A stretch of 64,000 bases of DNA from Tamlana sp. I1 (GTDB lineage Bacteria > Bacteroidota > Bacteroidia > Flavobacteriales > Flavobacteriaceae), in the NCBI RefSeq assembly GCF_015355625.1, contig NZ_JACLAF010000003.1:1-64000 (forward strand). The letters are read 5' to 3'. Under the pieces are notes generated by a model. The model was not told the DNA's origin. It did not search any database and was given only the letters and a program-made list of their open reading frames with translations. A program made the translations under genes and the position numbers. The first letter of the stretch is position 1. Every line of letters starts with the position of its first letter. Of the stretch, positions 43,936 through 64,000 are shown in pieces.

Positions 43936-45276
43936 ATGAAGAATAAACTAATTGTATTTTTTAGTTTACTATTTGCTATTTCAGGGTTTTCGCAAGACAA
44001 CACCATGCCTTTTAGCCTGCAAGAAGCTATAGACTATGCGTTAATAAATAACCGTAGTGTAAAAAATGCCTCGAGAGATATAGACATGGCTAAAGAAGAA
44101 AAATGGCAAGCTACCGCTACAGGTTTACCTCAAATTAACGGAGCTGTAGATTACCAAAACTGGTTAAAACAGCAAGTATCGCTACTGCCCGCAGAAATAA
44201 CTGGAGGAAATCCTGGCGAGTTTGTTCCGGTAGAGTTTAGTCCAAAACAAAATATTAACGCCACAGCGACTTTAAGTCAATTAATTTTCGACGGTTCTTA
44301 TTTGGTTGCTTTAAAAGCTTCAAAAGTCTATTTAGAAATTTCTGAAAACGCTAAAACTAAAACCGATCTGGAAGTTAGAAAAGCAGTCATTAACGCCTAC
44401 GGAAATGTTTTACTAACTGAAGAAAGTATAAAAATTCTTGAGAGCAATAAAGCTATTCTAGAATCGAACTTAGAAGAAATTCAAAAAACTTTTGAAAACG
44501 GTTTGGAAGAAGAAGAAAGTGTGGAACAAATGCAAATTACACTTTCAAGTTTAATGAGTGATTACAACAATGTAAAACGCCTTAAACTTTTAGCATACCA
44601 AATGTTTAATATTACATTGGGTATCGATTTAAACGCGCCTACCGTATTAACAGACAATCTTGAAATTCTAAGTTTACAATACACCTCGCTTGAAGCTTTA
44701 GCAGCCGACGATAGTGTAGAAAATAACATTGATTACCTAATTGCCGAAAACGAAGTTGAAAGCAAAGATTTACTTGTAAAACTAGCCATGAGTAAAGGCA
44801 TGCCAACACTTAGCGCCTTTGTAAATGGAGGCTACAGTGCCTTTGGTGAAGACTTTGCTTTTTTTAGAAGCAACCAAAAATGGTATGCTTCATCCATGTT
44901 TGGGGTGAGTTTAAACATTCCAATATTTAGCTCTTTAGGTCGCTCTTCTGCAACTCAAGAAGCTCGAATTGATTTAGAAAAAGCAAACGAATCTTTTGTT
45001 GAAGTTGAACAACAAATCAAATTAGAAATTGCTCGCGCTAAAAGTGAATACCAATATGCTATTGAAGATTATGCCAATAAAAAACAAAATTTAGACTTAG
45101 CAGAACGTATAGAACGTAAAAATGAAACCAAGTTTTTTGAAGGTATTTCATCAAGTTTCGATTTACGTCAAGCGCAAACACAATTGTACGCTGCACAGCA
45201 GGAATACTTACAAGCTATGATTGACATTATCAACAAAAAAGCAGAATTAGACGCCGTTTTAAACACCATAAATTAG
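43936..45276 (+). CDS. TolC family outer-membrane factor of the second RND system
   Basis: 446 aa. Signal peptide (MKNKLIVFFSLLFAISGFSQ), no lipobox, so unlike the first system's factor it is not a lipoprotein. Two TolC repeats: LQEAIDYALINNRSVKNASRDIDMAKEEKW, SQLIFDGSYLVALKASKVYLEIS, and the second half with SLNIPIFSSLGRSSATQEARIDLEKA. It serves as the outer-membrane duct for the RND pump. It begins 2 bp after tetR; the fusion protein follows after 6 bp. Confidence 0.92.
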   Translation: MKNKLIVFFSLLFAISGFSQDNTMPFSLQEAIDYALINNRSVKNASRDIDMAKEEKWQATATGLPQINGAVDYQNWLKQQVSLLPAEITGGNPGEFVPVEFSPKQNINATATLSQLIFDGSYLVALKASKVYLEISENAKTKTDLEVRKAVINAYGNVLLTEESIKILESNKAILESNLEEIQKTFENGLEEEESVEQMQITLSSLMSDYNNVKRLKLLAYQMFNITLGIDLNAPTVLTDNLEILSLQYTSLEALAADDSVENNIDYLIAENEVESKDLLVKLAMSKGMPTLSAFVNGGYSAFGEDFAFFRSNQKWYASSMFGVSLNIPIFSSLGRSSATQEARIDLEKANESFVEVEQQIKLEIARAKSEYQYAIEDYANKKQNLDLAERIERKNETKFFEGISSSFDLRQAQTQLYAAQQEYLQAMIDIINKKAELDAVLNTIN

Positions 45277-45282
45277 TAAAAA

Positions 45283-46458
45283 ATGACCATGAAAAACATA
45301 TACGCAGTACTCCTTGTTACAATGATATTAAGCTCCTGTGGCTCAAAAAGTCAAAAATCTGTTGACGACATTATTGCCACCAACGATTTGGAACAAATAC
45401 GCCAAAAGAAAACAGAATTAGATGCTGCTGCGCACGAAATCGCTTCAGAATTAAAAGAAATTGAAGCAGCCATTAAAGAACTAAATCCGCAGTCAAAAAT
45501 TCCTTTAATTACAACTTTTAAAGCCAAAGAAGAAGTTTTTAATCATTTTGTAGAGCTTCAAGGAAACGTAAGCACCAACCAAAACATTGTTATTTATCCT
45601 GAATTTTCTGGAGTACTAACGCGTGTTTATGTAAAAGAAGGACAACAGGTTAAAAAAGGTCAAATTTTAGCAAAAATTGACGATGGTGGTTTAAGTCAGC
45701 AATTATCTCAATTAAAAATTCAAGCGAATTTAGCACAAACAACCTACGAGCGCCAAAACCGTTTATGGGAACAAAAAATAGGTAGTGAAATTCAGTATTT
45801 ACAAGCCAAAGCCAATTACGAAGCGCAATCGCAAGCCGTAAACCAATTGGAGCAACAAATCTCTAAAACCGAAGTACGTGCTCCGTTTACTGGAACTATA
45901 GACGATGTGATTACAGACCAAGGAAGCGTTGTAGCTCCAGGTCAATCGCAATTATTCAGAATTGTAAATCTAGACGACATGTACATTGAAACCGATGTAC
46001 CAGAGCGTTACATTTCTAACATTACCAAAGGAAAAGATGTTACCGTAAATTTTCCTGTTTTAGGAAAAGAATTAAACGCCAAAGTACGTCAAGCAGGAAG
46101 CTACATCAATCCTGCTAACCGCACTTTTAAAGTTGAAATCGCGCTGCCTAATAAGGATAAATCTATTATTCCAAACTTAACAGCACGATTAAAAATTAAC
46201 GATTATACCAGCGATAAAGCGATTTTAATTCCGCAAAGTATCATTTCTGAAAATGCTGAAGGACAACAATATGTATATGCCATAGCTGATAAAAACGGAA
46301 AAAGTGCCAAAGCAAAACGCCTAATTATTGAAACAGGAAAAACCCAAGGTGATTATATTGAAATTTTATCAGGAATTGAGCATGACCAAGAAATTATCGA
46401 TGAAGGCGCACGTAGTGTAAAAGAAGGACAGGAAGTTAAAATTTTGGTTAGTGAGTAG
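45283..46458 (+). CDS. Membrane fusion protein of the second RND system
   Basis: 391 aa. The lipoprotein signal ends in LSSC; the ATG two codons later is an equal start. A helical segment (about 28-70, rich in K and E) precedes the barrel-sandwich hybrid (LTRVYVKEGQQVKKGQILAKIDDGGL), a coiled-coil hairpin (YERQNRLWEQKIGSEIQYLQAKANYEAQ), the second lipoyl half (TEVRAPFTGTIDDV) and a beta-barrel. It spans the periplasm between the permease and the outer-membrane factor. The permease gene follows 101 bp later. Confidence 0.92.
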   Translation: MTMKNIYAVLLVTMILSSCGSKSQKSVDDIIATNDLEQIRQKKTELDAAAHEIASELKEIEAAIKELNPQSKIPLITTFKAKEEVFNHFVELQGNVSTNQNIVIYPEFSGVLTRVYVKEGQQVKKGQILAKIDDGGLSQQLSQLKIQANLAQTTYERQNRLWEQKIGSEIQYLQAKANYEAQSQAVNQLEQQISKTEVRAPFTGTIDDVITDQGSVVAPGQSQLFRIVNLDDMYIETDVPERYISNITKGKDVTVNFPVLGKELNAKVRQAGSYINPANRTFKVEIALPNKDKSIIPNLTARLKINDYTSDKAILIPQSIISENAEGQQYVYAIADKNGKSAKAKRLIIETGKTQGDYIEILSGIEHDQEIIDEGARSVKEGQEVKILVSE

Positions 46459-46521
46459 ACTTTCCATTGCTGTAAAAGCAGGAAACCATAGTATAATTAA
46501 TCCGTTTCATAGTATAAAAAG

Positions 46522-46541
46522 ATTCCCTTTTTCAAGGGAAT
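46522..46541. repeat. Small palindrome between the fusion protein and permease genes
   Basis: ATTCCCTT (46522-46529) and AAGGGAAT (46534-46541), 8-bp stem, 4-nt loop, 18 bp before the permease ATG. A weaker hairpin TTTCC...GGAAA lies just after the fusion-protein stop. The T-run is absent, so it is not a clear terminator. It resembles short dispersed palindromes. Confidence 0.6.
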
Positions 46542-46559
46542 GAAAAAAACTAACGACTA

Positions 46560-49500
46560 ATGACTACAAAGAAAAACAAAGTAAATAAAGAATTTAGTTG
46601 GTCTTCTTGGGCGATCAACAACCAAACAACCATGTATGTGTTGATTGCTATGATTCTATTTCTAGGTGCAGGCGCCTATTTTAGCATGCCCCGAGAAAGC
46701 TTCCCAGAAATTAAGGAAACTAAAATTTACATCAGTTCGATATATCCTGGAAATACTGCCGAAGATATCGAAAAACTAATCACCGATCCTTTAGAAGATA
46801 AGCTTAAAACCGTAAGCAATGTAACCGAAGTAACCTCAACTTCTCAAGAAGATTACTCGATTATTATCATCGAATTTGATGAAAATATTACTGTTGAAGC
46901 GGCGAAACAAAAAGTAAAAGACGAAGTCGATTCAGAAACATCTGGAGAAGACTGGCCAATTTTTAATGGTGCAAAAGTAGAACCAAACGTGTTCGATTTA
47001 AGCCTTTCGGAAGAAATGCCCATTCTAAACATTAATATTTCTGGCGATTATCCTGTAGATAAACTTAAAGAATATGGCGAATACCTTCAAGATGAAATTG
47101 AAGGACTGCAAGAAATTAAGCAAGTTGATATTAGAGGGGCTCAAGAAAAAGAAGTTGAAGTTGCTGTAGATGTTTACAAAATGATGGCTGCTGCCGTTAA
47201 TTTTGACGATGTTATTAATACCATAAAAAAAGAAAACTTAACCATGTCTGCTGGTAATTTAATTACAAGCGGCCAAAGACGTACTATAAGAATATTAGGA
47301 GAAATTACCGATCCGCACGAGCTTGAAAACTTCGTTGTAAAATCGGAACATAACAATCCTATCTATTTAAGAGATATTGCAAAAGTTACTTTTAAAGACG
47401 AAGACAGAACCACTTACGCCAGAGAATTTGGCGACCCTGTGGTTATGCTCGATGTAAAAAAACGCGCTGGAAAAAACATGGTAGCTGCTGCCGAACAAAT
47501 TCGTGTAATTGTAGACGACGCCACCGAAAACGTATTTCCTCCAGACTTAAAAGTAACCATCGCCAACGATCAGTCACCAAAAACCATTGGTCAAGTAGAC
47601 GATTTAGTAAACAATATTATTTTTGGTATCCTACTGGTTGTTACCGTATTAATGTTCTTCTTAGGTTTTAAAAACGCATTATTTGTTGGGTTTGCTATCC
47701 CTATGTCGATGTTTATGTCGTTAATGATTTTAAACTATTTAGGCTACACCATGAATACCATGATTCTCTTCGGATTAATTATGGGCTTAGGAATGCTTGT
47801 AGATAACGGGATTGTTGTGGTAGAGAACGTATACCGACTCATGACAGAAGAAGGCATGGGCCGTGTTGAAGCAGCCAAAAAAGGTATTGGAGAAATTGCA
47901 TTTCCTATTATTATTTCTACAGCAACTACTGTTGCAGCCTTTATCCCTTTAGGGTTATGGCCAGGGGTTATGGGAGAATTCATGAAATATTTCCCAATAA
48001 CATTGTCGGTTGTTTTAGGTTCATCATTATTTGTGGCTATCTTTTTCAACTCGGTGATGGTTTCTCAATTTATGACCACGGAAGATAAAAATATGCCGTT
48101 AAAGCAAATTATTAAGATTTCAGTCATTTTTGGAATCATTGGGTTGCTTATTTTAATCATTGGCGGCGAGTATAGAGGTTTAGGCTCTTTAATGATTTTT
48201 ACGGTTATTTTATTATGGGTTTATAGATTATTCCTAAGAAAATGGGCTAACAAATTCCAAAACAACGCCTTACCACGTTGGGAACGTTTATACGAACGCG
48301 TGCTTCGTTTTTCAATTAGTGGTAAAAAACCAGCTATTATTTCCATTACAACCTTTGTATTATTAATTGTTGCATTTATTGGTTTTGGAGCTTCTGTAGC
48401 AAGCCAACGTACCAAAGTTGAGTTTTTCCCAGAAAACAAACCCAATCAAATTATAGCTTATATTGAATACCCTGAAGGTACCGATATTGAAAAAACTAAT
48501 GCCATTACAAAAGAAATTGAGGAGCGTGTTTATAAAATTATAAACGACCCGATATACATGCATGATGGTTATAATTTCTTAACAGAAAGTGCGGTTTCTC
48601 AAGTTGGTGAAGGTGCCGGAAATCCACAAACCGATGGTGGTTCGGCAGCCGAAATGCCACACCGCGGAAAAATAACCGCAACCATGCGCGAATACAAATT
48701 CCGTGAAGGTGCCGACAGTCAGGAATTACTTAAAAAAGTACAGGAAGAATTAAAAGATATTTATCCTGGTGTTACTATTTCGGTTGAAAAAGATGCCAAT
48801 GGCCCGCCAGCAGGGTATCCTATTAATATAGAAATTGAAGGTGAAGATTATGGCGAACTTATTAATCTAGCCGAAAAAATGCGCGAATTCATTAATACCA
48901 AAAACATTCAAGGTATCGATGAATTAAAAATTGATGTCAACAAATCGAAACCTTCCATGCAAGTGGTGGTCGACCGAAAAAAAGCTGGAGAATTAGGTGT
49001 GTCTTCCAGCCAAGTAGGCCAGCAATTACGTAATTCCATTTTTGGAGCTAAAGCGGGCATTTACAAAAAAGACGGCGATGATTACGATATTTATGTGCGT
49101 TTTAATAAGGAAGATCGCTATAACACGAGTGCTATTTTCAATCAGAAAATGACCTTTAGAGATATGGCCTCGGGCCAAGTGAAAGAAATCCCAGTTTCAG
49201 CCGTAGCAAAACACAGTAATTCTTCTGGATTTAGCGCTATAAAACACAAAGATGTAAAACGTGTTGTAACCTTGTATTCTGCCTTAGCCCCTGGATTTAC
49301 AGATGCTGGAGCTATTGTTTCTAAAATTCAATATGAAATGCAAAGTTTCACCGAAAAACCAGATAACGTAAGCATTGATTATACAGGACAAATTGAAGAA
49401 CAGAATAAACAAATGAAATTCCTTATGGGCGCCTTTTTTACAGGATTGGGCTTAATTTTCTTCATTTTAATATTCCAATTCAACTCGGTATCAAAACCAG

Positions 49501-50051
49501 GCATCATTATGTTGGCTATATTTTTAAGTTTAATTGGTGTATTTGGCGGTATTGTAGCAACAGGAAGTGCCTTTGTTATTATGATGACCATGATGGGAAT
49601 TATTTCCCTGGCCGGAATTGTAGTAAACAACGGGGTGGTTCTCCTAGATTACACGCAACTTTTAATAGATAGAAAGAAAGTTGAATACGACATGGAAGAC
49701 AATCAATATTTAAATGATGGCGATTTAATTGAAGCCATTGTAAAAGGTGGAAAAGCACGTTTACGTCCTGTATTATTAACCGCAATCACTACGATTTTAG
49801 GGTTAATTCCGTTAGCAACAGGTTTAAACATTAACTTCTTCTCTTTATTTAGTGAATTTAACCCACATATTTATGTAGGTGGTGATAACGTGATATTCTG
49901 GGGACCATTAGCATGGACCGTAATTTACGGTTTATTCGTGGCTACCTTCCTAACTTTAATTGTGGTGCCAATACTGTTTTATTTAGTAACTAAATTTAAA
50001 ATGTGGTTATATAAAGACCGTGTAGTAACTAAGAATGAAGTGGTTTCTTAA
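46560..50051 (+). CDS. RND efflux permease with divergent proton-relay residues
   Basis: 1163 aa, about 120 longer than AcrB. It shows the RND plan: TM1, large periplasmic loop, TM2-6, TM7, second loop, TM8-12. TM4 reads GLGMLVDNGIVVVENV, with the first Asp kept and the second replaced by Asn. TM10 reads GIVVNNGVVLLDY, with Asn where AcrB has its relay Lys. Between TM6 and TM7 two extra hydrophobic stretches occur (IIKISVIFGIIGLLILIIGG, LGSLMIFTVILLWVY). It therefore belongs to a different RND branch from the first permease. Substrate unknown. It is the last gene of the tetR operon. Confidence 0.92.
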   Translation: MTTKKNKVNKEFSWSSWAINNQTTMYVLIAMILFLGAGAYFSMPRESFPEIKETKIYISSIYPGNTAEDIEKLITDPLEDKLKTVSNVTEVTSTSQEDYSIIIIEFDENITVEAAKQKVKDEVDSETSGEDWPIFNGAKVEPNVFDLSLSEEMPILNINISGDYPVDKLKEYGEYLQDEIEGLQEIKQVDIRGAQEKEVEVAVDVYKMMAAAVNFDDVINTIKKENLTMSAGNLITSGQRRTIRILGEITDPHELENFVVKSEHNNPIYLRDIAKVTFKDEDRTTYAREFGDPVVMLDVKKRAGKNMVAAAEQIRVIVDDATENVFPPDLKVTIANDQSPKTIGQVDDLVNNIIFGILLVVTVLMFFLGFKNALFVGFAIPMSMFMSLMILNYLGYTMNTMILFGLIMGLGMLVDNGIVVVENVYRLMTEEGMGRVEAAKKGIGEIAFPIIISTATTVAAFIPLGLWPGVMGEFMKYFPITLSVVLGSSLFVAIFFNSVMVSQFMTTEDKNMPLKQIIKISVIFGIIGLLILIIGGEYRGLGSLMIFTVILLWVYRLFLRKWANKFQNNALPRWERLYERVLRFSISGKKPAIISITTFVLLIVAFIGFGASVASQRTKVEFFPENKPNQIIAYIEYPEGTDIEKTNAITKEIEERVYKIINDPIYMHDGYNFLTESAVSQVGEGAGNPQTDGGSAAEMPHRGKITATMREYKFREGADSQELLKKVQEELKDIYPGVTISVEKDANGPPAGYPINIEIEGEDYGELINLAEKMREFINTKNIQGIDELKIDVNKSKPSMQVVVDRKKAGELGVSSSQVGQQLRNSIFGAKAGIYKKDGDDYDIYVRFNKEDRYNTSAIFNQKMTFRDMASGQVKEIPVSAVAKHSNSSGFSAIKHKDVKRVVTLYSALAPGFTDAGAIVSKIQYEMQSFTEKPDNVSIDYTGQIEEQNKQMKFLMGAFFTGLGLIFFILIFQFNSVSKPGIIMLAIFLSLIGVFGGIVATGSAFVIMMTMMGIISLAGIVVNNGVVLLDYTQLLIDRKKVEYDMEDNQYLNDGDLIEAIVKGGKARLRPVLLTAITTILGLIPLATGLNINFFSLFSEFNPHIYVGGDNVIFWGPLAWTVIYGLFVATFLTLIVVPILFYLVTKFKMWLYKDRVVTKNEVVS

Positions 50052-53818: not shown

Positions 53819-54049
53819 ATGAAATACTTTCTTCTTATACTAACTATCGCTGCTTTTGCAAGCATTATTTTAGGTTTTACTTTAAATGTAGACTACTCTG
53901 AAAAACTTATTGGCTTTGGTGTTTCAGGGCTTTTTTTAATCGTTTTTCCTCTATTCGCTTACCGTCAATGGAAAAATAAAGACCCTAAAGATTATATGCT
54001 GACTAAAGAGAATTTAGACAAAATGCGAGAGAATCAGAAGCGGGAATAA
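53819..54049 (+). CDS. Small membrane protein (donor of the duplicated tail)
   Basis: 76 aa with two membrane helices (about 3-22 and 32-50), then a charged cytoplasmic tail (RQWKNKDPKDYMLTKENLDKMRENQKRE). It starts 42 bp after the ClC gene. I recognise it only as a conserved flavobacterial hypothetical. The last 16 codons, from GACTAAAGAG at 54001, recur at 54946-54994 fused to a dxs fragment, with 2 differences in about 85 bp including the 3' flank. Confidence 0.7.
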   Translation: MKYFLLILTIAAFASIILGFTLNVDYSEKLIGFGVSGLFLIVFPLFAYRQWKNKDPKDYMLTKENLDKMRENQKRE

Positions 54050-54162
54050 TAGTTTTCAGTGATCTGTTTTCAGTCACAGGAGCTGAAATAAAAATACTTT
54101 GACACGAATTGTTTACGAACAAATTTTCATCAGTGAAAATCCGTGTCCAAAAAAATCAAGAT

Positions 54163-54286
54163 TTAATTCAAGTTAGGGCGTTCAATAAAAAAACGTTTCA
54201 TTAAATGACTGGCTTCATCAGCCAAAACACCACCTTCAATAATGGTTTTAGGATGCAGTTTGGTGTTCAAATTAATACAACCACGA
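54163..54286 (-). pseudogene. tadA 3' fragment (duplicate)
   Basis: About 41 codons matching the C-terminus of TadA on the minus strand, ending ERPNLN-stop where the intact gene ends ERRNLN-stop. From 54181 to 54286 only 3 of 106 bases differ from 55198-55303. Similarity ends abruptly after CCACGA at 54286; the bases that follow (CCAAT) match a later point of tadA (CGACCAAT near 55343-55350), suggesting an internal deletion at a CGA microhomology. Confidence 0.85.
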
Positions 54287-54300
54287 CCAATGAAGCAACA

Positions 54301-54335
54301 AAAAAGGCCTGTAAAATACATTTACAGACCTTTTT
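54301..54335 (-). terminator. Terminator of the 54353-54721 lipoprotein gene
   Basis: AAAAAGGCCTGTAAA pairs with TTTACAGACCTTTTT, with one mismatch position and a 5-nt loop, 18 bp after the lipoprotein stop on the minus strand. Confidence 0.8.
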
Positions 54336-54352
54336 ACTAAATTTAAGATAGC

Positions 54353-54721
54353 TTATTTTTTAACATAAGTCCTTACTTCAGAATGCGTTTCTCCAGCATT
54401 CTCATAAAAGACTTTAATTTTTAAAGTTTTAGCTGTTAATTCAAGTATTTCAACTGAACTGTTGTTAACCTTAATATAATTCCCCTCAACACTATAACTA
54501 AATACATCACTTTCATCATTCAATTCACAATCTGTTCCATAGTACAATATTAAACTCACTGTGGTTTCCGTATACACCTCTTCTCGTGGACATCCACCCT
54601 CTACATCTGAAACAAGCGTCCAGGTACCTACTAAATCTGATGCAGAATATTTTGGATCATCGTCTTTACTACAAGAAACCGATAAACTAACAAGACACAA
54701 TACTAATAATAATTTTTTCAT
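54353..54721 (-). CDS. Lipocalin-like lipoprotein
   Basis: 122 aa. The lipoprotein signal ends SVSC (Cys at about 17), followed by SKDDDPKYSASDLVGTWTLVSDVEGGCP, where the GTW motif is typical of the lipocalin-like domain found in many short Bacteroidota lipoproteins. A run of beta strands follows to the end. Three further Cys residues are possible disulfide partners. It occupies the place where unit 1 of the tandem duplication should have the body of tadA, so it arrived after or with that event. Ligand unknown. Confidence 0.8.
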   Translation of the reverse strand: MKKLLLVLCLVSLSVSCSKDDDPKYSASDLVGTWTLVSDVEGGCPREEVYTETTVSLILYYGTDCELNDESDVFSYSVEGNYIKVNNSSVEILELTAKTLKIKVFYENAGETHSEVRTYVKK

Positions 54722-54829
54722 AATGTTTTTGGATTTTATTCTTGGAGCGAAAATATGTTAGAGGTTTGAGAGAAAAAACACATTTAACAAATAAATATGT
54801 TTTTAGTATTAATTTTGCTGTAATACATT

Positions 54830-54994
54830 TTGAATAAAAACCTGTTAGATACCATACATTGTCCTAGCGACCTTCGTCTATTAAACCAAAAAGACTTACC
54901 GCTTTTTGCCAAAGAATTACGCGAGTTTATTATTAACATTTTAGCGACTAAAGAGAATTTAGATAAAATGCGAGAGAATCAGAAACGGGAATAA
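54830..54994 (+). pseudogene. Chimeric frame: dxs 5' stub fused in frame to the tail of the small membrane protein gene
   Basis: From a TTG at 54830 the frame reads 54 codons without a stop. Residues 1-41 (MNKNLLDTIHCPSDLRLL..., FIINILATKE) correspond to the DXS N-terminus, and residues 41-54 (KENLDKMRENQKRE) are the C-terminus of the protein at 53819-54049. The switch lies in GACTAAAGA. The 54-aa product would have neither membrane helices nor an active site. It may be a silent fragment or a newly formed small gene. The start codon is inferred by alignment with dxs. Confidence 0.7.
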
Positions 54995-55179
54995 TAGTTT
55001 TCAGTGATCTGTTTTCAGTCACAGGAGCTTTAAGAAAATATTTCTTATTTGATATAAGTTGTTTCACTGAGACACGCAGAGAGTCACAGAGCTGAAATAA
55101 AATACTTTGACACGAATTGTTTACGAGCAAATTTTCATCAGTGAAAATCAGTGAAATCCGTGTCCAAAAAAATCGAGAT

Positions 55180-55629
55180 TCAATTCAAATTACGGCGTTC
55201 AATAAAAAAACGTTTCATTAAATGGCTGGCTTCTTCAGCCAAAACACCACCTTCAATAATGGTTTTAGGGTGCAGTTTGGTGTTCAAATTAATACAACCA
55301 CGATCTAAGTCTCTGGCGCCATAAACAATTTTAGAAATTTGCGACCAATACAAAGCACCGGCACACATTTGGCAAGGCTCTAAAGTGACATACAAGGTGC
55401 ATTTTTGAAGGTACTTACCACCTAAAAAATTAGCCGCCGCCGTTATGGCTTGCATTTCGGCATGAGCCGTCACATCATTGAGCATTTCGGTTAGATTATG
55501 ACCACGAGCAATCACTTTATTATCGATAACAATCACTGCTCCCACAGGAATCTCCCCCTTTTCAAAAGCAGTTTCTGCCTCCTGAAGGGCTTTTTTCATA
55601 AAATAAGTATCGTCGAATGGCTGAATCAT
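55180..55629 (-). CDS. tadA: tRNA adenosine(34) deaminase TadA
   Basis: 149 aa. It deaminates A34 to inosine in tRNA-Arg(ACG). The zinc site and catalytic Glu are clear: His56-Ala-Glu58 (AHAEMQ) and PCQMC with Cys86 and Cys89. PVGAVIV and LYVTLEPC match the family. It diverges from dxs. A 3' fragment of the same gene occurs at 54163-54286 in the upstream duplicate unit. Confidence 0.95.
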   Translation of the reverse strand: MIQPFDDTYFMKKALQEAETAFEKGEIPVGAVIVIDNKVIARGHNLTEMLNDVTAHAEMQAITAAANFLGGKYLQKCTLYVTLEPCQMCAGALYWSQISKIVYGARDLDRGCINLNTKLHPKTIIEGGVLAEEASHLMKRFFIERRNLN

Positions 55630-55735
55630 AATGAAAAGATTAGATTTTCAAAATTACAATTTCAAAAATAATTTGAATTATAATTTTAAGATTAAGCCCT
55701 ATTTATATTTTCAATAGTAAGAATAATAAAAACAG

Positions 55736-55743
55736 TATTTTTG
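55736..55743 (+). promoter_or_regulatory. -7 box of dxs, four bases from the start codon
   Basis: TATTTTTG, exact TAnnTTTG match, then TGTC, then the GTG start at 55748. This nearly repeats the layout before the polyprenyl synthase gene. Confidence 0.6.
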
Positions 55744-55747
55744 TGTC

Positions 55748-57505
55748 GTGCAAAAAACTCTATTAAACCATATTCACTCCCCTAAGGACTTGCGTCTTTT
55801 AAAACAAAAAGACTTACCACTTCTTGCCAAAGAACTACGCGAATTCATTATAAATATCGTAGCGACTAAAGAAGGGCATTTAGGGGCGAGTTTGGGTGTT
55901 GTAGAACTTACTATCGCCTTACATTATGTGTTTAACACACCGGAAGACCAATTGGTTTGGGATGTAGGACATCAGGCCTACGGACATAAAATTTTAACAG
56001 GCAGAAAAGACAACTTTGAAACCAACAGACAACTAGGAGGACTAAGCGGATTCCCAAAACGCGACGAAAGTATCTTTGATACTTTTGGCGTTGGGCATGC
56101 CTCCACCTCTATTTCGGCAGCTTTGGGTATGGCCATTGCATCACGACTTAAAGGAGATTTAGAAAAACAACACATTGCCGTAATAGGCGATGCTAGTATT
56201 GCGGGCGGTATGGCTTTTGAAGGCTTAAACCATGCCGGCGTTACCAAGGCCAATTTATTAGTGATTTTAAATGATAATGCCATTGGTATCGACCCCAGCG
56301 TTGGGGCCTTAAAAATGTACCTCACCAACGTAAAAAAGGGCACCCAAAAACAAGATAATATTTTTGAAGCTTTAAATTTTGATTATTCGGGTCCGATTGA
56401 TGGGCATGATCTAGATGCAGTCATATCGGAATTACAACGCTTAAAAACCGTTCAAGGTCCAAAGTTTTTACACATTATAACCACGAAAGGCAAGGGTTTA
56501 AAGCAAGCTGAAAAAGACCAAGTTAAATACCATGCTCCTGGAAAATTTAATGCCCAAACGGGGGATATTCCTGTGCAAGCAACCACCATTCAACCCCCTA
56601 AATATCAAGATGTTTTTGGGCATACCATTGTGGAATTGGCCAAAGAAAACAAAAATATAGTTGGCATTACGCCAGCCATGCCAACGGGAAGTTCCCTAAA
56701 ATTTATGATGGACACCCTCCCCGATCGTGCTTTCGATGTTGGGATTGCCGAGCAGCATGCGGTGACTTTAGCTGCCGGTATGGCCACCCAAGGTTTAATT
56801 CCATTTTGCAATATTTACTCCACATTTTTACAACGGGCTTACGATCAAATTATTCACGATGTGGCCTTGCAAAATCTACCTGTTATTTTTTGTTTAGACC
56901 GCGCTGGTCTGGTTGGCGAAGATGGCGCCACGCACCACGGCGTTTACGATTTAAGCTATTTACGCTGCATACCAAACCTTATTATTTTTGCCCCTAGAAA
57001 CGAAGTGGAATTGCGCAACATCATGTACACCGCACAATTAGGACTGGAACAACCCATCGCTATTCGTTACCCTCGAGGTCGTGGGGTGATTATCAATTGG
57101 AAACAAGGATTCACTAAAATTAATATCGCCGAAGCAGTCACCCTTCAAGAAGGTCAAAACATAGCCGTTTTAAGCATCGGAACCATGGCTAAAAACGTTT
57201 CGGAAGCTATTACAAATTTAAATGTATCGCATTACGACATGCGCTTTGTAAAGCCTCTAGACGAAACCTTATTACACCATATTTGTAAAACACATCACAC
57301 CATAATTACCGTTGAAGACAACAGTGTTCGCGGTGGTTTCGGATCGGCGATTCTAGAATTTATGGCTGAACATAAGTACACCAACACCATAAAATTATTA
57401 GGCATTCCAGATACTTTCATCGAACACGGAAAAGTTACTGAACTCCAACAATCTATTGGCTTAGATCCTGAAAGTTTAAAGAAAACCATTAGTAATTTCG
57501 TATAA
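55748..57505 (+). CDS. dxs: 1-deoxy-D-xylulose-5-phosphate synthase
   Basis: 585 aa, slightly shorter than the roughly 620 of many DXS. First step of the MEP isoprenoid pathway: pyruvate plus glyceraldehyde 3-phosphate, using thiamine diphosphate. WDVGHQAYGHKILTGR (catalytic His region), GDASIAGGMAFEGLNHAG (ThDP motif, GDA in place of GDG as in other flavobacteria), VGIAEQHAVTLAAGMA, and a transketolase C-terminal domain. GTG start fixed by the promoter and by alignment with the stub at 54830. The 5' end differs from the stub mainly at silent sites. Confidence 0.96.
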   Translation: MQKTLLNHIHSPKDLRLLKQKDLPLLAKELREFIINIVATKEGHLGASLGVVELTIALHYVFNTPEDQLVWDVGHQAYGHKILTGRKDNFETNRQLGGLSGFPKRDESIFDTFGVGHASTSISAALGMAIASRLKGDLEKQHIAVIGDASIAGGMAFEGLNHAGVTKANLLVILNDNAIGIDPSVGALKMYLTNVKKGTQKQDNIFEALNFDYSGPIDGHDLDAVISELQRLKTVQGPKFLHIITTKGKGLKQAEKDQVKYHAPGKFNAQTGDIPVQATTIQPPKYQDVFGHTIVELAKENKNIVGITPAMPTGSSLKFMMDTLPDRAFDVGIAEQHAVTLAAGMATQGLIPFCNIYSTFLQRAYDQIIHDVALQNLPVIFCLDRAGLVGEDGATHHGVYDLSYLRCIPNLIIFAPRNEVELRNIMYTAQLGLEQPIAIRYPRGRGVIINWKQGFTKINIAEAVTLQEGQNIAVLSIGTMAKNVSEAITNLNVSHYDMRFVKPLDETLLHHICKTHHTIITVEDNSVRGGFGSAILEFMAEHKYTNTIKLLGIPDTFIEHGKVTELQQSIGLDPESLKKTISNFV

Positions 57506-57608
57506 ACGCATTTATTTTTAGCCTAAAAAATCTACTTACTACCTAACAATTCACTTTTAAGAGGGCATATTATTAGTTTAAGAATCGAAGATTATATTTT
57601 ACTTTTTT

Positions 57609-57713
57609 GGGCGCCAGCCTGCCGGCTGGCAGGTTACCTAAAGGTCGGGCTTTCCAATACAATCTTTTTGTTCGCAAACTCTCAAAAAGGATTTCCTTTG
57701 CAATCCCTAACGC
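57609..57713 (-). repeat. Complete copy of the GCGTTAGGGATT...GCGCCC intergenic repeat, reverse orientation
   Basis: 105 bp from GGGCGC to AATCCCTAACGC. Reverse-complemented it matches 19722-19825 nearly base for base (about nine in ten bases by eye), including GGAAATCCTTTTTGAGAG and AAAGCCCGACCTTTAGG. Confidence 0.85.
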
Positions 57714-57966
57714 ATTCACGATTTCCATAAAACAAAAATTAAAAACAATGAGAAATCCCTAACGCAACAGTCTATCAATTGATAATTTTAAGCTGTATAC
57801 TAAAAGCGACAACTGCACACGCTTCGAATTAATAGCACAAACACATTCCTGCCAATTAGTGTCTTTATAGTTTTTAACATAAGTACTCTAGAAAAGTTCT
57901 TCGAAGGAATACTAATAAAAACAGCAAAAATACCCCTGTGATCCCCTCTAGGGGATATTTTAAAAA

Positions 57967-58000
57967 AAACCCGAATTTGATTGGTATCAAATTCGGGTTT
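57967..58000 (-). terminator. Terminator of bioB
   Basis: AAACCCGAATTTGAT (57967-57981) pairs perfectly with ATCAAATTCGGGTTT (57986-58000), TGGT loop, T-run on the minus strand. It is 25 bp after the bioB stop. Confidence 0.93.
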
Positions 58001-58025
58001 TATATTTTTTATGCGAAGCACTTAC

Positions 58026-59126
58026 TTAATCTTGTGACGCCTCTTTTCTTAAAGCTCTAGCCGCTTCATTACGTTCAATTTTATGTTCTGGGCGTGTCCA
58101 TTTTGGTTTTTCACCTAAAGCTTCAATTTTAGAATCTTGAGCTTCAACCGTTTTTGGTTGTACTTTTTTAGTGAATGGTTTTTGAGGTTTTAATCCTAAT
58201 AATTCAAACATTTTCATGTCTTCGTTCACATCTGGATTTGGAGTAGTTAATAACTTATCACCTGCAAAAATAGAATTTGCTCCTGCAAAGAAACACATCG
58301 CCTGACCTTCTCTAGTCATTTGCGTACGTCCTGCACTTAAACGCACTTGAGTTTCTGGCATCACAATTCTTGTGGTGGCTACCATACGTACCATATCCCA
58401 AATAGAAACTGGCTCTTGGTCTTCTAAAGGTGTTCCTTCAACAGCTACTAAAGCGTTTATTGGTGTCGATTCTGGTTGCGGATTTAAAGTAGAAAGTGCT
58501 ACTAACATACCTGCACGATCTTCAATATTTTCACCCATGCCTATAATACCACCGCTACAAACCGTAACATTGGTTTTACGCACGTTATCAATAGTATCTA
58601 AACGATCTTGATAACCACGGGTTGAAATCACTTCTTTATAATATTCTTCCGAAGAATCTAAATTATGATTGTAAGCATACAAACCAGCTTCAGCCAAACG
58701 CTTCGCTTGGTTTTCGGTTACCATACCAAGGGTACAACACACTTCCATATCCAGTTTATTAATGGTTCTTACCATTTCTAAAACTTGATCGAACTCCTCG
58801 CCATCTTTTACATTTCGCCATGCAGCTCCCATACAAACACGTGAACTTCCGCCTGATTTAGCGCGTAAAGCTTGTGCTTTAACTTGTTGCACAGACATTA
58901 AATCGTTTCCTTCAATATCGGTGTGGTATCTGGCTGCTTGTGGGCAATAGCCACAATCTTCAGAACATCCGCCTGTTTTTATCGACAATAAAGTAGAAAC
59001 CTGTACGGTGTTTGGGTCATGATGCAAACGATGAACCGTTGCAGCATCATAAAGCAACTCCATAAAAGGTTTGTTATATATCTCTAGAATTTCTTCTTTA
59101 GTCCAGTTGTGTCTAGTCTCGCTCAT
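58026..59126 (-). CDS. bioB: Biotin synthase
   Basis: 366 aa from the ATG at 59126 (an upstream ATG at 59147 overlaps the promoter box). A radical-SAM enzyme that inserts sulfur into dethiobiotin. Cys54, Cys58 and Cys61 (CSEDCGYCPQ) bind the 4Fe-4S cluster; Cys residues for the auxiliary 2Fe-2S cluster follow (CMGAAWRN, CCTLGM, TVCSGGI). A basic tail of about 40 residues (KPFTKKVQPKTVEAQD...) extends past the usual C-terminus. It has its own promoter and terminator. Confidence 0.96.
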   Translation of the reverse strand: MSETRHNWTKEEILEIYNKPFMELLYDAATVHRLHHDPNTVQVSTLLSIKTGGCSEDCGYCPQAARYHTDIEGNDLMSVQQVKAQALRAKSGGSSRVCMGAAWRNVKDGEEFDQVLEMVRTINKLDMEVCCTLGMVTENQAKRLAEAGLYAYNHNLDSSEEYYKEVISTRGYQDRLDTIDNVRKTNVTVCSGGIIGMGENIEDRAGMLVALSTLNPQPESTPINALVAVEGTPLEDQEPVSIWDMVRMVATTRIVMPETQVRLSAGRTQMTREGQAMCFFAGANSIFAGDKLLTTPNPDVNEDMKMFELLGLKPQKPFTKKVQPKTVEAQDSKIEALGEKPKWTRPEHKIERNEAARALRKEASQD

Positions 59127-59144
59127 TTGAAGATTAATTTTTAG

Positions 59145-59152
59145 CAAAAATA
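59145..59152 (-). promoter_or_regulatory. -7 box of bioB
   Basis: Minus-strand TATTTTTG, exact TAnnTTTG match, 18 bases before the bioB ATG and directly next to the stop of the upstream gene. Confidence 0.55.
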
Positions 59153-59153
59153 G

Positions 59154-59636
59154 TTATAACCATTTAGAATTTCTTTCAGTTGCATCTAAAATATCAATAT
59201 TTAATACCTGAGAAAGATATTTAGCATTTTCAAAGGCATCATTAAGGTCATCTGTAATGTAGGCTTCAATTTTCTCGTTTCCATTATAAAAAAGATTTAA
59301 TTTATAAACTTGGTTAGAAAAATTAGCCGAAGCTCCCATGCCCTGTACTCTCTTGTTTTCGTTAGTTTTAAAAACTGAAACATATTCGATATCAGGTAAA
59401 TCTTTCCACTTTCCAATATTAACACCTATTACTGAATAAATTTCTCGATATTTCTTTGAAGCAAAATCTATTTCAGACCCCTCTCTTAGCATTAAAAAAA
59501 CACCAATTCCTGAAAGGATTAAATTGAAAACATTATTTGTGATTGCTCCAATAAGACCTAAAATAAAGAGGGTAACTCCAAATACCATTTTCATAGTTGG
59601 TACGGGTCTTAAGTGTTGTAAAGTTGTTTTGTTCAA
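59154..59636 (-). CDS. Membrane protein of unknown function in the biotin cluster
   Basis: 160 aa from a TTG at 59636; an ATG at 59594 is a possible alternative. Two adjacent membrane helices (about 17-50, MVFGVTLFILGLIGAITNNVFNLILSGIGVFLML), then a soluble domain of strands and one helix (EIDFASKKYREIYSVIGVNIGKWKDLPDIEYVSVFKTNENK, ...AYITDDLNDAFENAKYLSQVL), a layout resembling PH-like bacterial membrane proteins. It lies between the ketoacyl synthase and bioB. No link to biotin is provable. Confidence 0.65.
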   Translation of the reverse strand: MNKTTLQHLRPVPTMKMVFGVTLFILGLIGAITNNVFNLILSGIGVFLMLREGSEIDFASKKYREIYSVIGVNIGKWKDLPDIEYVSVFKTNENKRVQGMGASANFSNQVYKLNLFYNGNEKIEAYITDDLNDAFENAKYLSQVLNIDILDATERNSKWL

Positions 59637-59775
59637 TGTAATAAATTTATGTTAGTATTATCAAAATCTGTTTTTAAGATTCGCCTTTTACGGTGTTCTT
59701 TCAACCGGTTTTATCCTATATTTTACCTCTTAAATAATCAGAAAATTACTATATTCTCTCAAAAATTACAGCGGC

Positions 59776-60978
59776 TTAATCGCCTGCCTTAGTTAACAAT
59801 ATAGAAACCGCATTCCCACCAAATCCAACAGCGTTTACTAGTATATTTTTAATTCTTTTTGGTTGTTTTTGATCCTTTAAATAAGGAACACTTATAAAGT
59901 GTTGCTTTTGAAGTATCAAAACCGCCAACTCAATACTTAACGACCCCGAAGCCCCAAAAGTATGTCCGATTTTCCACTTATTAGTGGTTAGCGCCGGTGG
60001 GTTAGGGAATACTTTTTCAATGGCTTTTACTTCTGATAAATCGCCTTTTATAGTCCCTGGCGCATGCATGACAATAACATCGACCTCATCGGGATTTAAA
60101 TCGCCTAAGGCCATTTTCATCGATTTCTGGAAACATTTTGCATCACTAGAAATGGAAATATTATGTTTTAATATTTCGGTAGCATAGCCATAGCCGCTAA
60201 TAATTGCAAGGGCGTCCTCCTGAATGCCAGCTTCCAAACAAGCTACGGAAGCACCTTCGCCTAACACCATCGTGTTTTTGGTTTTTTCGAGATCTAAGGC
60301 GCGACATGGGAATGTTGCTTCCAGCGCTTCTCCAGGCTCAGCGTGACAATCATCTTGAATTTTGACTTGCGAATATATTTTTAGTGCTTGCATCTGCGCT
60401 AAGGTAAATGGCGTTAATGGCGCCTCACTTCCTCCAACTAAAAATTTATTGCACATGCCAGAATTAATCCACGCGATACCATTTAACATGGCATGCAAAG
60501 CTGTAGAACAGGTTATGGAATGACTTATTTCTGGGCCTTCGGTTTGTAAATCGTGAGCCACCCAAGAGGCAATATTGCCTAAGGTTGTGGTTGGCGAACT
60601 TAAGGTTTCTGCCTTATTAGATTGTAAAAAGGAATCGTAATAAGTTTCGAAAAGTTCGGTAGCGCCGCGGGAAGACCCTAAGTTGATGCCGAAATTATCG
60701 CTAGCATCCCATTTTGCTTGTTTTACAGCAGCTCTAGAAGCATAAATGGCATATAAAACGGAATTATCTAAAGACTTGTACTTTTGATCGGATTGCTTTA
60801 AAGCCTCAATATCAGCTTTAGCATGCTCAGGAATTTGAGCCACCGGTAGCTCTTGATTCAAAACGGATTTTGAAGTCAGACAATGGTTGTTGCTTAAATA
60901 ACTTTGCCATACTTCGTCGGATGTTTTTCCTAAGGAAGAAATAGATGACATGGCGGTAATGGAAATGGGTTGTTGCAT
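59776..60978 (-). CDS. Beta-ketoacyl synthase of the biotin cluster
   Basis: 400 aa from the ATG at 60978; a start at 61032 would encode a hairpin repeat as 18 extra residues. Thiolase fold with the Cys157-His305-His339 triad (ITCSTALHA, MHAPGTIKGD, KIGHTFGASG), so it should be an active condensing enzyme. Residues about 205-222 (VKIQDDCHAEPGEALEAT) are encoded by DNA resembling a dispersed repeat and look like an insert. Because it lies beside biotin genes, a role in making or handling the pimeloyl precursor is inferred. Confidence 0.85.
   Translation of the reverse strand: MQQPISITAMSSISSLGKTSDEVWQSYLSNNHCLTSKSVLNQELPVAQIPEHAKADIEALKQSDQKYKSLDNSVLYAIYASRAAVKQAKWDASDNFGINLGSSRGATELFETYYDSFLQSNKAETLSSPTTTLGNIASWVAHDLQTEGPEISHSITCSTALHAMLNGIAWINSGMCNKFLVGGSEAPLTPFTLAQMQALKIYSQVKIQDDCHAEPGEALEATFPCRALDLEKTKNTMVLGEGASVACLEAGIQEDALAIISGYGYATEILKHNISISSDAKCFQKSMKMALGDLNPDEVDVIVMHAPGTIKGDLSEVKAIEKVFPNPPALTTNKWKIGHTFGASGSLSIELAVLILQKQHFISVPYLKDQKQPKRIKNILVNAVGFGGNAVSILLTKAGD
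60324..60349. repeat. Dispersed-repeat-like word inside the ketoacyl synthase gene
   Basis: CTTCTCCAGGCTCAGCGTGA lies here, very close to the CTTCGACAGGCTCAGCGTGA word that recurs in intergenic DNA of many bacteria. It is in frame and codes CHAEPGEAL. Confidence 0.55.
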
Positions 60979-60990
60979 AAATATTTCGTC

Positions 60991-61032
60991 ATGCTGAACT
61001 CCTGCCTGCCGACAGGCAAGGTGTTTCAGCAT
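60991..61032. repeat. 42-bp nested palindrome
   Basis: Outer arms ATGCTGAA (60991-60998) and TTCAGCAT (61025-61032); inner arms TGCCTG (61003-61008) and CAGGCA (61013-61018). It lies 12 bp upstream of the ketoacyl synthase start and creates a false ATG-initiated extension. Confidence 0.75.
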
Positions 61033-61101
61033 CTCATAATATGGTGATGTGAATCTAAAAAGTTAATCTGATTAACGTTAGTTGACAAAAATACTATTTA
61101 T

Positions 61102-61253
61102 GCGTTAGGGATTACTCATAGTTTACATTTTTATTGAAATCGTGAATCACAGCATTTGAAGCGGCATCCTTTTTAATTTCATAAAAAATTAAAAAGATAA
61201 AGCGGATAGCCCGACCGCCTGTCCTGAGCGTAGTCGATGGATGGGTAACGCCC
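61102..61253 (+). repeat. Diverged, longer copy of the GCGTTAGGGATT...GCGCCC repeat
   Basis: It starts GCGTTAGGGATT, has CATCCTTTTTAA, AAAAAGAT and AGCGGATAGCCCGACC in the same order as the other copies, then a CCTGTCCTGAGCGTAGTCGA word and the end GGGTAACGCCC. The last base is the first base of the bioA stop codon (complement). It fills the gap between the ketoacyl synthase and bioA. Confidence 0.7.
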
Positions 61254-62533
61254 TAAACAATATCCAAAGCCTCTTCAATAACCTGATAGATTTTTTCTAA
61301 CTGAGTTTCCGTAACCACATAAGGCGCTTGAATGTAAATGGTGTTCCCAAGCGGTCGTAAAAACACGCCGTGATTCATGAAAAACTTGAATAGTTTATCA
61401 CGCAGATTTCCGTAGCGTTGCATTTCTACATCTAAATCTAAGGCAAAAATAACGCCTGATTGTCTGATGTCTTTTACTTTAGGATGCTTTTTAATGTGTT
61501 CGCCAAAAGTTTGATGTGAAGCTATAATGCGCAGTATATTGCTTTGAATGGCTTCGGTTTGTAGCAATTCTATACTCGCCAAAGCAGCTGTACAGGCTAG
61601 TGGATTTGCCGAATAGGTATGTCCGTGAAAAAGGCCTTTTCCGATATCGTCGCTATAAAAAGCATCGTAAATATCTTGTGAGCAGGTGGTTAATGCCATG
61701 GGTAGCAATCCGCCCGTAAGCGCCTTGCTTAAACACATAACATCTGGTTTGGTTTCCATGTGTAGCGATGCGAAATGTTTTCCGGTTTTACCAAAACCTG
61801 TCATGACCTCGTCGGCAACGGTTATAATTTGATTGTTTTTACAAAATTGTAAAATGGTATTTAAGTCATTAACATCATGCATTTTCATGGCTGCTGCACC
61901 TTGAACCAAAGGTTCGTAAACAAATCCAGCGACTTTATTGTCTTTAGAAATTTTTTCTAATTGCTCTAAAATAGCATCTAAATTTTCACCATTTGGAACT
62001 GGAATACGTTTCACATCGAGGAAAAATTCTTCAAACGGACCGTTATAAACCGAGAGTCCAGAAACACTCATGGCGCCAAAGGTATCGCCGTGAAAACCAT
62101 CCTCGAAAGCGATTAGGGTATTGCGTTTTTCCCCATTGTTAAAATGATATTGTAGGGCCATTTTAATACCAATTTCAACCGAAGTGGAGCCGTTATCACT
62201 AAAAAATATTTTTTGTTGATTATCGGGAAGAATATTGATCAAAGCTTCGGAAAGTTTCACGGCAGGTTCGTGTGTAAATCCGCTAAAAACCACTTGATCC
62301 AGCTGTTTCATTTGTTCTGAAACCCGACTGGTTATATAATCGTTGCAGTGCCCGTACATACAGGTGTACCATGAGGCGATAGCATCGATATATTCGTTAC
62401 CATTTTCGTCGGTTAACACACAGCCTTTTGCTTTTGTAATGGCAATAGATTCTGGGTGCAATTTATGTTGGGTAAGCGGGTGCCAGAGGTGTTTTTTGTC
62501 GCGTTGTTGTAGTGTCATAAGTGCTCTCGTCAT
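61253..62533 (-). CDS. bioA: Adenosylmethionine-8-amino-7-oxononanoate aminotransferase
   Basis: 426 aa (an ATG 15 bases inside is an alternative start). Fold-type I PLP enzyme that makes 7,8-diaminopelargonate. Family marks: HLWHPLTQH, ASWYTCMYGH, SDNGSTSVEIGIKMALQYHF, DGFHGDTFGAMSVSG, ADEVMTGFGKTG, and the PLP-lysine segment CLSKALTGGLLP. Length is normal. bioD lies upstream with a 43-bp gap; the next gene downstream is the ketoacyl synthase, with no bioF between. Confidence 0.96.
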   Translation of the reverse strand: MTRALMTLQQRDKKHLWHPLTQHKLHPESIAITKAKGCVLTDENGNEYIDAIASWYTCMYGHCNDYITSRVSEQMKQLDQVVFSGFTHEPAVKLSEALINILPDNQQKIFFSDNGSTSVEIGIKMALQYHFNNGEKRNTLIAFEDGFHGDTFGAMSVSGLSVYNGPFEEFFLDVKRIPVPNGENLDAILEQLEKISKDNKVAGFVYEPLVQGAAAMKMHDVNDLNTILQFCKNNQIITVADEVMTGFGKTGKHFASLHMETKPDVMCLSKALTGGLLPMALTTCSQDIYDAFYSDDIGKGLFHGHTYSANPLACTAALASIELLQTEAIQSNILRIIASHQTFGEHIKKHPKVKDIRQSGVIFALDLDVEMQRYGNLRDKLFKFFMNHGVFLRPLGNTIYIQAPYVVTETQLEKIYQVIEEALDIV

Positions 62534-62576
62534 TCTTGTTGTACTGATGTTCTAAAGTAATTATAGTAGGGTGACG

Positions 62577-63197
62577 TTACAAATTAGCTTTAAACTTATC
62601 AGCATATTCCCGAATCACATTTTTATCGAAATAAGGTTCTTCATCAATCCTTCCAATAACGGAAGCTTTTGTCATTTTTTTAATGATGTCTTCTGTCGTT
62701 TTATGTTCGTTTCCACTGAAAATTAGTGAGACATCAAATCCTTTTTCTTGCAGTAATTTTACTGTTAGAAGCGTGTGATTGATACTTCCTAAATAGTGTC
62801 TAGATACCACAATAACCTTATAATTTGGTTTGATAATATCTAAAATCGTCTTTTCATCATTCAAAGGAACTAACAAACCACCAGCACCTTCAATAACCAA
62901 ATGATTGTTGGTTTTGGGAGGGTTTATCTGCTTTAAATCGATTGTAACGCCATCTATTTCCGCGGAAGCGTGCGGACTCATAGGCGTGTTTAATGCATAG
63001 GCGTTAGGATGAAATTTTGTATTGGTATTGGAGATTAGGTTTTGTACTTTTTTGGTATCGCAATGGTCTAATTCTCCGGCCTGAATGGGTTTCCAGTAAT
63101 CGGCTTCTAAGGCTTCTGTTACAATGGCCGAGGCCACGGTTTTACCAACTTCGGTAGAAATACCTGTTATGAAATAAGTGTTTGTTTTTTTCGTCAT
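62577..63197 (-). CDS. bioD: Dethiobiotin synthetase
   Basis: 206 aa from the second in-frame ATG (63197; the first is two codons earlier). It closes the ureido ring of biotin using CO2 and ATP. P-loop TGISTEVGKTVASA at the N-terminus, KPIQAGELDHCD (substrate Lys and Asp), and VIEGAGGLLVPLNDEKT. It is followed by bioA on the same strand. Confidence 0.95.
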   Translation of the reverse strand: MTKKTNTYFITGISTEVGKTVASAIVTEALEADYWKPIQAGELDHCDTKKVQNLISNTNTKFHPNAYALNTPMSPHASAEIDGVTIDLKQINPPKTNNHLVIEGAGGLLVPLNDEKTILDIIKPNYKVIVVSRHYLGSINHTLLTVKLLQEKGFDVSLIFSGNEHKTTEDIIKKMTKASVIGRIDEEPYFDKNVIREYADKFKANL

Positions 63198-63269
63198 GCG
63201 CAAGTCATTCTATTGATGCTTTTCTGTTTTAGAAAATGACATCAAATTAATAAGTGTAGAACTTAAAAA

Positions 63270-64000
63270 TCAGTCTTTTAGCGTTAAAATTTTAATTAAT
63301 TCCACGTTAATATAATAATTTCCTGTTCCTAATTTTTCTTTTTTGAGGATGTTATCTTTTGCTAATAAATTAAGATATTTTGAAGCTGTAATTCTTGAAA
63401 CACCTAAGTCATTTTCAATAAATTCAATCTTCGTATAAGGGTGCATAAATAAATTATTTAATAAATCTTGGCTATAAAACTTATAGTTGGTTCTAAGCAG
63501 GTGCTTATATTTAAGCATTAGATCATTAATTTTTGCAATTAATACAATGGTTTCTTTTGAAATTTGCTCAACACTGTCTAGCATGTATAAAATCCAATTC
63601 TCCCAATGATTCGTTTCTCTAACTTCTTGTAAAAGTTTATAATAATCTGCTTTATGCGTTATAATATAACGACTTAAATACAAGACGGGAAGATTTAATA
63701 AATCGTTCATTACTAAAAACAACACGTTTATAATTCGCCCTGTTCTTCCGTTTCCGTCATAAAAAGGATGTATACTTTCAAACTGAAAATGAATAATAGC
63801 CATTTTAACCAAATCGTCGTAATCCGAAACGCTAGGATCATTTATAAATCGTTCTAGATTTTGCATTAAATCTAATATGGCATCGTAATCTTGGGGAGGG
63901 GTGTAAACGGTTTCTCCCGTTGTTGCATTTTTAAGTGTGGTTCCTGGAACTCTTCTAAACCCAGCGTTATTTTTTTCTAATTCCGACTGGATGGCGATAA
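63270..64000 (-). CDS. Fic family protein (N-terminus outside the window)
   Basis: 242 residues are visible; the frame is open to the window edge, so an internal ATG at 63866 is not the start. The visible N-terminal part (GTTLKNATTGETVYTPPQ, LMQNLERFIND) matches the SoFic-like group. The catalytic motif HPFYDGNGRTGR is intact, and a winged-helix domain ends the protein (TKIEFIENDLGVSRITASKYL). Fic enzymes transfer AMP to protein hydroxyls. The auto-inhibitory helix would lie in the missing N-terminus. The gene is 72 bp upstream of bioD. Confidence 0.9.
   Translation of the reverse strand, partial: IAIQSELEKNNAGFRRVPGTTLKNATTGETVYTPPQDYDAILDLMQNLERFINDPSVSDYDDLVKMAIIHFQFESIHPFYDGNGRTGRIINVLFLVMNDLLNLPVLYLSRYIITHKADYYKLLQEVRETNHWENWILYMLDSVEQISKETIVLIAKINDLMLKYKHLLRTNYKFYSQDLLNNLFMHPYTKIEFIENDLGVSRITASKYLNLLAKDNILKKEKLGTGNYYINVELIKILTLKD

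Follow-up and report, generated by a model that had tools for sequence, protein, structure and literature searches.

We examined a 64,000-nucleotide stretch of the Tamlana sp. I1 genome (contig NZ_JACLAF010000003.1, positions 1 to 64,000; hereafter the window), in which part of an array of a small membrane gene (mem), tadA and dxs is present twice in tandem. The scar of this duplication is genuine and it sits at the edge of a probable gene replacement. Its affinities indicate that the present dxs came from a relative resembling two other genomes of the genus, and a 42-codon fragment of a second dxs, left in the first repeat unit, is most likely the remnant of the native gene. Because a replacement between related bacteria erases the old copy, most cases are inferred from trees. 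A probable piece of the old allele beside the new one allows the direction of transfer, one crossover point and the ancestral gene order to be read from one locus.

The repeat is organized around the 9-bp sequence GACTAAAGA, which occurs on the forward strand at 54001-54009, 54946-54954 and 55864-55872 and on the reverse strand at 59095-59103. These four occurrences in the window compare with a mean of 0.42 over 100 shuffles, none of which reached four. The successive forward copies are 945 and 918 bp apart, and we refer to the intervals beginning at 54001 and 54946 as unit 1 and unit 2. An earlier note on this DNA had placed the three copies at exactly these positions and had described both intervals as holding the tail of mem, a spacer, the tadA 3' end and a dxs 5' end in the same order, and alignment bore out both descriptions. 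The similarity goes beyond short chance words, with 95% identity over 93 nt of mem tail and spacer (54001-54093 vs 54946-55038), 96% over 55 nt of spacer (54091-54145 vs 55099-55153), 95% over 150 nt of spacer and tadA 3' end (54137-54286 vs 55154-55303) and 77% over 124 nt of the dxs 5' ends (54831-54954 vs 55749-55872). The spacers also differ in length: the alignment has gaps of roughly 63 and 9 bp, with unit 1 the shorter, and either loss or gain could have produced them.

The two copies are thus arranged head to tail, and their internal junction (54946-54954, forward strand) lies within a short sequence common to both parental ends, dxs and mem, as in a microhomology-mediated duplication. 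This supports the proposal of the earlier note that a tandem duplication joined a dxs to mem at GACTAAAGA. Among the 358,938 pairs of positions in the present dxs and mem, 31 share at least 9 bases at a join, a count that includes the positions of the real junction and in which the imported dxs stands in for the native one. It is therefore very likely that the microhomology guided the join. None of the other five genus members has the junction, and no mobile element was evident by eye at the junction in the stretch viewed, no dedicated search having been made.

The two units have diverged unevenly, whereas even divergence would be expected of an untouched tandem duplication. When substitutions were counted in ungapped blocks, with the shared 9 bp excluded from the dxs block, the units differed at 11 of 280 sites in the mem tail, spacer and tadA tail vs 29 of 115 in the dxs 5' piece (Fisher p = 2.3e-9). 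The separation of the two dxs pieces is therefore much older than that of the remaining repeat, whose 4% divergence could have arisen after the join or could reflect two strains.

The dxs fragment of unit 1 (dxs'; 54830-54954, forward strand) consists of the first 42 codons, begins with TTG and is 77% identical in nucleotides to the 5' end of the intact gene. Over the first 126 nt it differs from the unit 2 dxs at 31 sites, distributed 8, 4 and 19 over first, second and third codon positions, so that third positions account for 61% of the differences (one-sided binomial p = 0.0013); its frame is open. Since the changes fall mostly at third positions and 13 of the 23 changed codons are synonymous, we read the fragment as having diverged mainly as a working gene, with some room for decay. 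It is 66.9-74.8% identical to the dxs starts of the other five genus members and 74.8% identical to unit 2 over 127 nt; in the same comparison, the dxs starts of genus members are 63.8-79.5% identical among themselves. No close match to dxs' was found when its nearest allele was sought among ten relatives (62.1-74.8%). The fragment and the intact dxs thus look like alleles of two lineages and not like copies of one another, and the fragment was most likely the recipient's own old dxs.

The ancestral gene order was examined in related genomes. A DXS search over 60 genomes, that of the window (G000) included, contained five others of the same genus (G001-G005), and a genus-wide search gave no further ones (six with the window's own); the locus comparison within the genus extended over 6.5 kb per genome. 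All five carry a single array in which mem, tadA and dxs are each matched once, and the two-unit layout is therefore derived. We also screened 110 loci for the three genes at E 1e-3, a threshold at which relics too short to reach it would escape. These loci come from two sets that overlap in genera and differ in flanks. All three genes were found in 35 loci; 34 of them had one match per gene, and the remaining one, the window's own, had two dxs starts. The single arrangement in close relatives that the earlier note had anticipated was thus encountered throughout.

Unit 1 also contains an intact gene for a lipoprotein-like protein of 122 aa (54353-54721, reverse strand; lipobox-like LSVSC recognized by eye) that has no copy in unit 2 and shows a weak match to Lipocalin_4 (PF13648, 20.6 bits, below the cut-off of 22.4). 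In G001 the order is mem-tadA-lipoprotein-dxs, and the lipoprotein there is 48% identical in amino acids to that of the window. A search in a draw of 397 genomes of the family gave lipoprotein matches in 41, the window's own included. Thirty such loci were inspected together with flanks of about 1.5 kb; apart from our own, two have the gene at this place. The first, L160 (G267), reads mem-tadA-lipoprotein-dxs, with 42% amino acid identity over lipoprotein residues 1-103. The second, L161 (G234), reads mem-tadA-lipoprotein, with no dxs match within the stretch compared. Unit 1 therefore keeps an order known from other genomes, and its ancestor, judged by this order, evidently had the lipoprotein gene between tadA and dxs. 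In L160, which belongs to another genus, the stretch from the lipoprotein gene to dxs also contains a second, partial tadA start (1389-1420 and 1956-1987, 31 nt, 87%), and the tadA-dxs gap may therefore have repeatedly taken insertions that left scars.

The tadA gene of unit 2 changes its affinity along its length. In 75-base windows up to 55,480 it is 80-89% identical to G001 and 81-93% to G004, while the last two windows reach 99-100%. Positions at which unit 2 matches neither G001 nor G004 number 39 in 55181-55517 and zero in 55518-55680. Where these two genomes share a base that sets them apart from G002, G003 and G005, unit 2 has their base at 13 of 35 such sites on the left side and at all 14 of those from 55525 onwards. 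This site-level switch places a left crossover inside tadA at 55517-55525. The gene itself (55180-55629, reverse strand) is intact and encodes 149 aa, with a 3' part that appears native and a 5' part that appears imported. It exceeds the cut-off of Pfam deaminase families, and among NCBIfam models it scores highest with TadA (NF008113; 131 bits, short of the cut-off of 150). The part of unit 2 before the crossover (54946-55517; mem tail, spacer and tadA 3' part) is of native type, with 95% identity to unit 1 where aligned and tadA windows before 55,505 that are 77-93% identical to the five other genomes of the genus.

From the crossover on, high identity to G001 and G004 marks a putative imported segment that spans the tadA 5' end, dxs, bioB and further bio-like genes (55518-64000) and continues past the window to about 66,250 of the contig. 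The left end is thus known at site level, at about 55,518, and the right end only to about 66,250. Of the 34 windows of 250 bp with data between 55,500 and 66,250, 31 are at least 89% identical to G001 and 31 to G004; beyond, identity drops to 76 and 72%. Over 7,905 aligned sites the segment is 93.8% identical to G001 and 92.6% to G004, which are 92.1% identical to each other. A control of 12,826 aligned sites from a 15-kb stretch of another contig gave 81.9, 81.4 and 91.3% for the same three comparisons, and 12,326 sites between 42.0 and 55.5 kb gave 81.9, 84.4 and 86.2%. Expressed as the divergence of G000 from G001 and G004 over that between G001 and G004, the ratio is 0.86 in 55.5-66.25 kb vs 2.11 in the control. 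BLAST of four further stretches to G001 and G004 gave 67-87% outside the segment and 89% in its last 2.1 kb.

The trees agree with these identities. In the dxs tree G000 groups with G001 and G004 (support 100/100, paths 0.084-0.088). In the tree of clc, the gene just upstream, the paths to G001 and G004 are 0.36-0.37 and G000 has no supported place. The intact dxs (55748-57505, forward strand; 585 aa, NCBIfam TIGR00204 above cut-off) lies at its ancestral place in the gene order and groups with a donor lineage that its flanking genes do not share, as in displacement in situ. As identity to G001 and G004 is about 93% from 55,518 to about 66,250 vs about 82% in the control, we take the present dxs to be the allele of a G001/G004-like relative. 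The dxs of G001 itself is hybrid-looking, with its first 100 bases 68% identical to the window's dxs and 70% to that of G004, and the rest 93% identical to the window's.

We propose the following history, which we consider probable as an explanation of the locus. A native haplotype with the order mem-tadA-lipoprotein-dxs would have acquired DNA from a G001/G004-like relative. Homologous recombination within tadA (55,518-55,525) would have made the left join, and the import, extending across dxs and the bio genes as far as about 66,250, would have replaced the native dxs and bio genes. Through the GACTAAAGA microhomology the native dxs would have become fused, at codon 42, with the end of a mem gene. 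This join would have partly duplicated the native DNA, placing native mem-tadA-lipoprotein-dxs' ahead of a second mem tail and a tadA running into the import. The unit 1 tadA would have lost its 5' part, and the native dxs everything past codon 42. The outcome would be a locus with one intact copy each of mem, the lipoprotein gene, tadA and dxs, plus the surviving first 42 codons of the displaced dxs, and the four genes are indeed each intact or open exactly once here. Two courses are compatible with this history: the native duplication may have preceded an import that overwrote its second unit, or one native chromosome may have crossed unequally with a recombinant one. The data would fit either order of join and import. 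We infer that the two were linked, and more tentatively, as a possibility we would not favor, they may have been one event, in which interspecies recombination that was faulty on its left side merged the recipient and recombinant haplotypes across the 9-bp match. On such a reading the locus would preserve, as a natural fossil, the formation of a merodiploid through exchange between species, with later resolution to one intact copy per gene, and it would show how such exchange can also create duplications.

The earlier note took the locus for a plain duplication of gene-tadA-dxs at GACTAAAGA, and one may suppose that unit 1 then decayed by tadA loss, gain of the lipoprotein gene and drift of dxs'. 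The junction, the gene order and the single arrays of relatives fit such a course, and 10 of the 23 changed codons of dxs' are non-synonymous. We nevertheless regard it as highly unlikely, since dxs' has diverged roughly six times as far as the remaining repeat (29/115 vs 11/280), mostly at third codon positions, the lipoprotein gene that the ancestor of unit 1 appears to have carried occupies the same place in G001 and G267, and unit 2 switches affinity at about 55,518, its tadA 5' end and dxs being close to G001 and G004. The loss of a large part of the unit 1 tadA, which the note had also claimed, stands: the 5' part is absent and about the last 40 codons remain.

Unequal divergence of 4% vs 25% would likewise result if the duplication were old and gene conversion between the units had later homogenized the mem tail, spacer and tadA tail but not dxs' and dxs. 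This would leave unexplained the 93% identity of the next 10.7 kb to G001 and G004 and would therefore still need an import; we find it very improbable. The locus does resemble two haplotypes, and the genome is a draft of 32 contigs with a contamination estimate of 1.32%, so that an assembly or strain-mixture artefact gluing two haplotypes together has to be considered. The units are set apart by about 4% divergence and by gaps, and the overlap of 9 bp is too short, as usual assemblers do not join across one of that length; an artefact is accordingly very unlikely.

Several observations weigh against the history of native haplotype, import and join. The fragment dxs' is short, with 115 informative sites; its assignment as native rests on its unlikeness to the sampled alleles, with no positive match; and 10 of its 23 changed codons alter the amino acid, so that some decay is possible. 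Left of the crossover, the same 13 of 35 diagnostic sites do agree with G001 and G004. The divergence ratio is noisy, being 1.22 overall in 42.0-55.5 kb and 0.74-1.01 in the windows between 44.5 and 50 kb, where it is low because G001 and G004 differ strongly. The import is uneven, with only 86-87% near 59.0-59.2 kb, and parts of 57.5-58.0, 59.2-59.75 and 63.2-64.5 kb are without alignment; several tracts or later inserts are therefore possible. High identity in the bioB part extends to G002, G003 and G005, at 85-92%. Finally, dxs and bioB are adjacent in G002, G003, G005 and the window, but this neighbourhood is broken in G001, where dxs and the bio genes lie on two contigs (C22 and C1), and in G004, where they are about 430 kb apart (C1:1302762 and 1730773). 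Therefore, neither is the donor in its present form, or there were several imports.

The events proposed are of known kinds in an unusually readable combination. In xenologous gene displacement in situ a gene is replaced by the orthologue of a relative, and the displaced gene usually leaves no trace. Here, too, an existing gene appears to have been replaced at its place by a relative's orthologue, but the probable first 42 codons of the old gene persist beside the new one. Among the publications listed in literature searches, none evidently described a surviving piece of a displaced allele, which does not show that no such account is in print. Microhomology-mediated duplication and homology-facilitated illegitimate recombination are characterized by a short shared sequence at the join and homologous exchange nearby, and our locus likewise has a short match at the join with homologous exchange close by; here join and exchange may have been one event or two. 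In a report on merodiploids formed by transformation in Streptococcus pneumoniae, incoming DNA causes unequal crossing-over between sister chromatids and hence tandem duplications of about 100-900 kb, the paired repeats being incomplete IS861 copies (PMC3784515). The likeness to that account lies in exchange with incoming DNA alongside a tandem duplication; the difference is that the shared sequence here is 9 bp and the repeat below 1 kb, and transformation is only a guess. Natural competence is reported for some Flavobacteriaceae (PMC7965970). A DprA homologue is present in the genome of the window, and the family was also matched in 11 of 14 control genomes; entry of the DNA by natural transformation is a guess. 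The locus is a single case concerning a housekeeping gene, with no shown effect on the cell.

The remaining features of the locus are as follows. The intact mem (53819-54049, forward strand), taken as native, encodes 76 aa with 74-78% amino acid identity to the five other copies in the genus and matched no Pfam family above cut-off. The putative native tadA relic of unit 1 (54163-54286, reverse strand) retains the stop and about the last 40 codons and is identical to 55180-55303 at 118 of 124 nt. Across the junction, dxs' continues in frame into the mem tail as an open reading frame of 54 aa (54830-54994, forward strand). We rejected this fusion as a gene, as only its residues 1-41 match NCBIfam (the DXS model, far below cut-off) and its junction is absent from the other five genus members; it probably arose by chance. 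In the spacer within 55131-55178, about 40 bases belong to a dispersed intergenic repeat with listed matches in G000, G002, G003 and, most often, G005.

Among the bio genes of the segment, bioB exceeds its family cut-off, a bioF-like gene falls below it, and bioA and bioD are named by eye only. The bio cluster also contains a Fic-type gene (G000 C26 63,270-64,343; L141:6270-7343; NCBIfam NF046030, E 6e-109, below cut-off) in a stretch that does not align to the compared pieces of the five same-genus relatives. Upstream, at 45,000-50,000 of the window, G001 and G004 are only 68-81% identical to each other in ten 500-bp windows vs 87-98% in most adjacent windows, and the genome of the window is closer to G004; this is probably another recombined block. 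A further dispersed repeat lies 3' of dxs (57610-57775), with 17 matches in the same genome, itself included.

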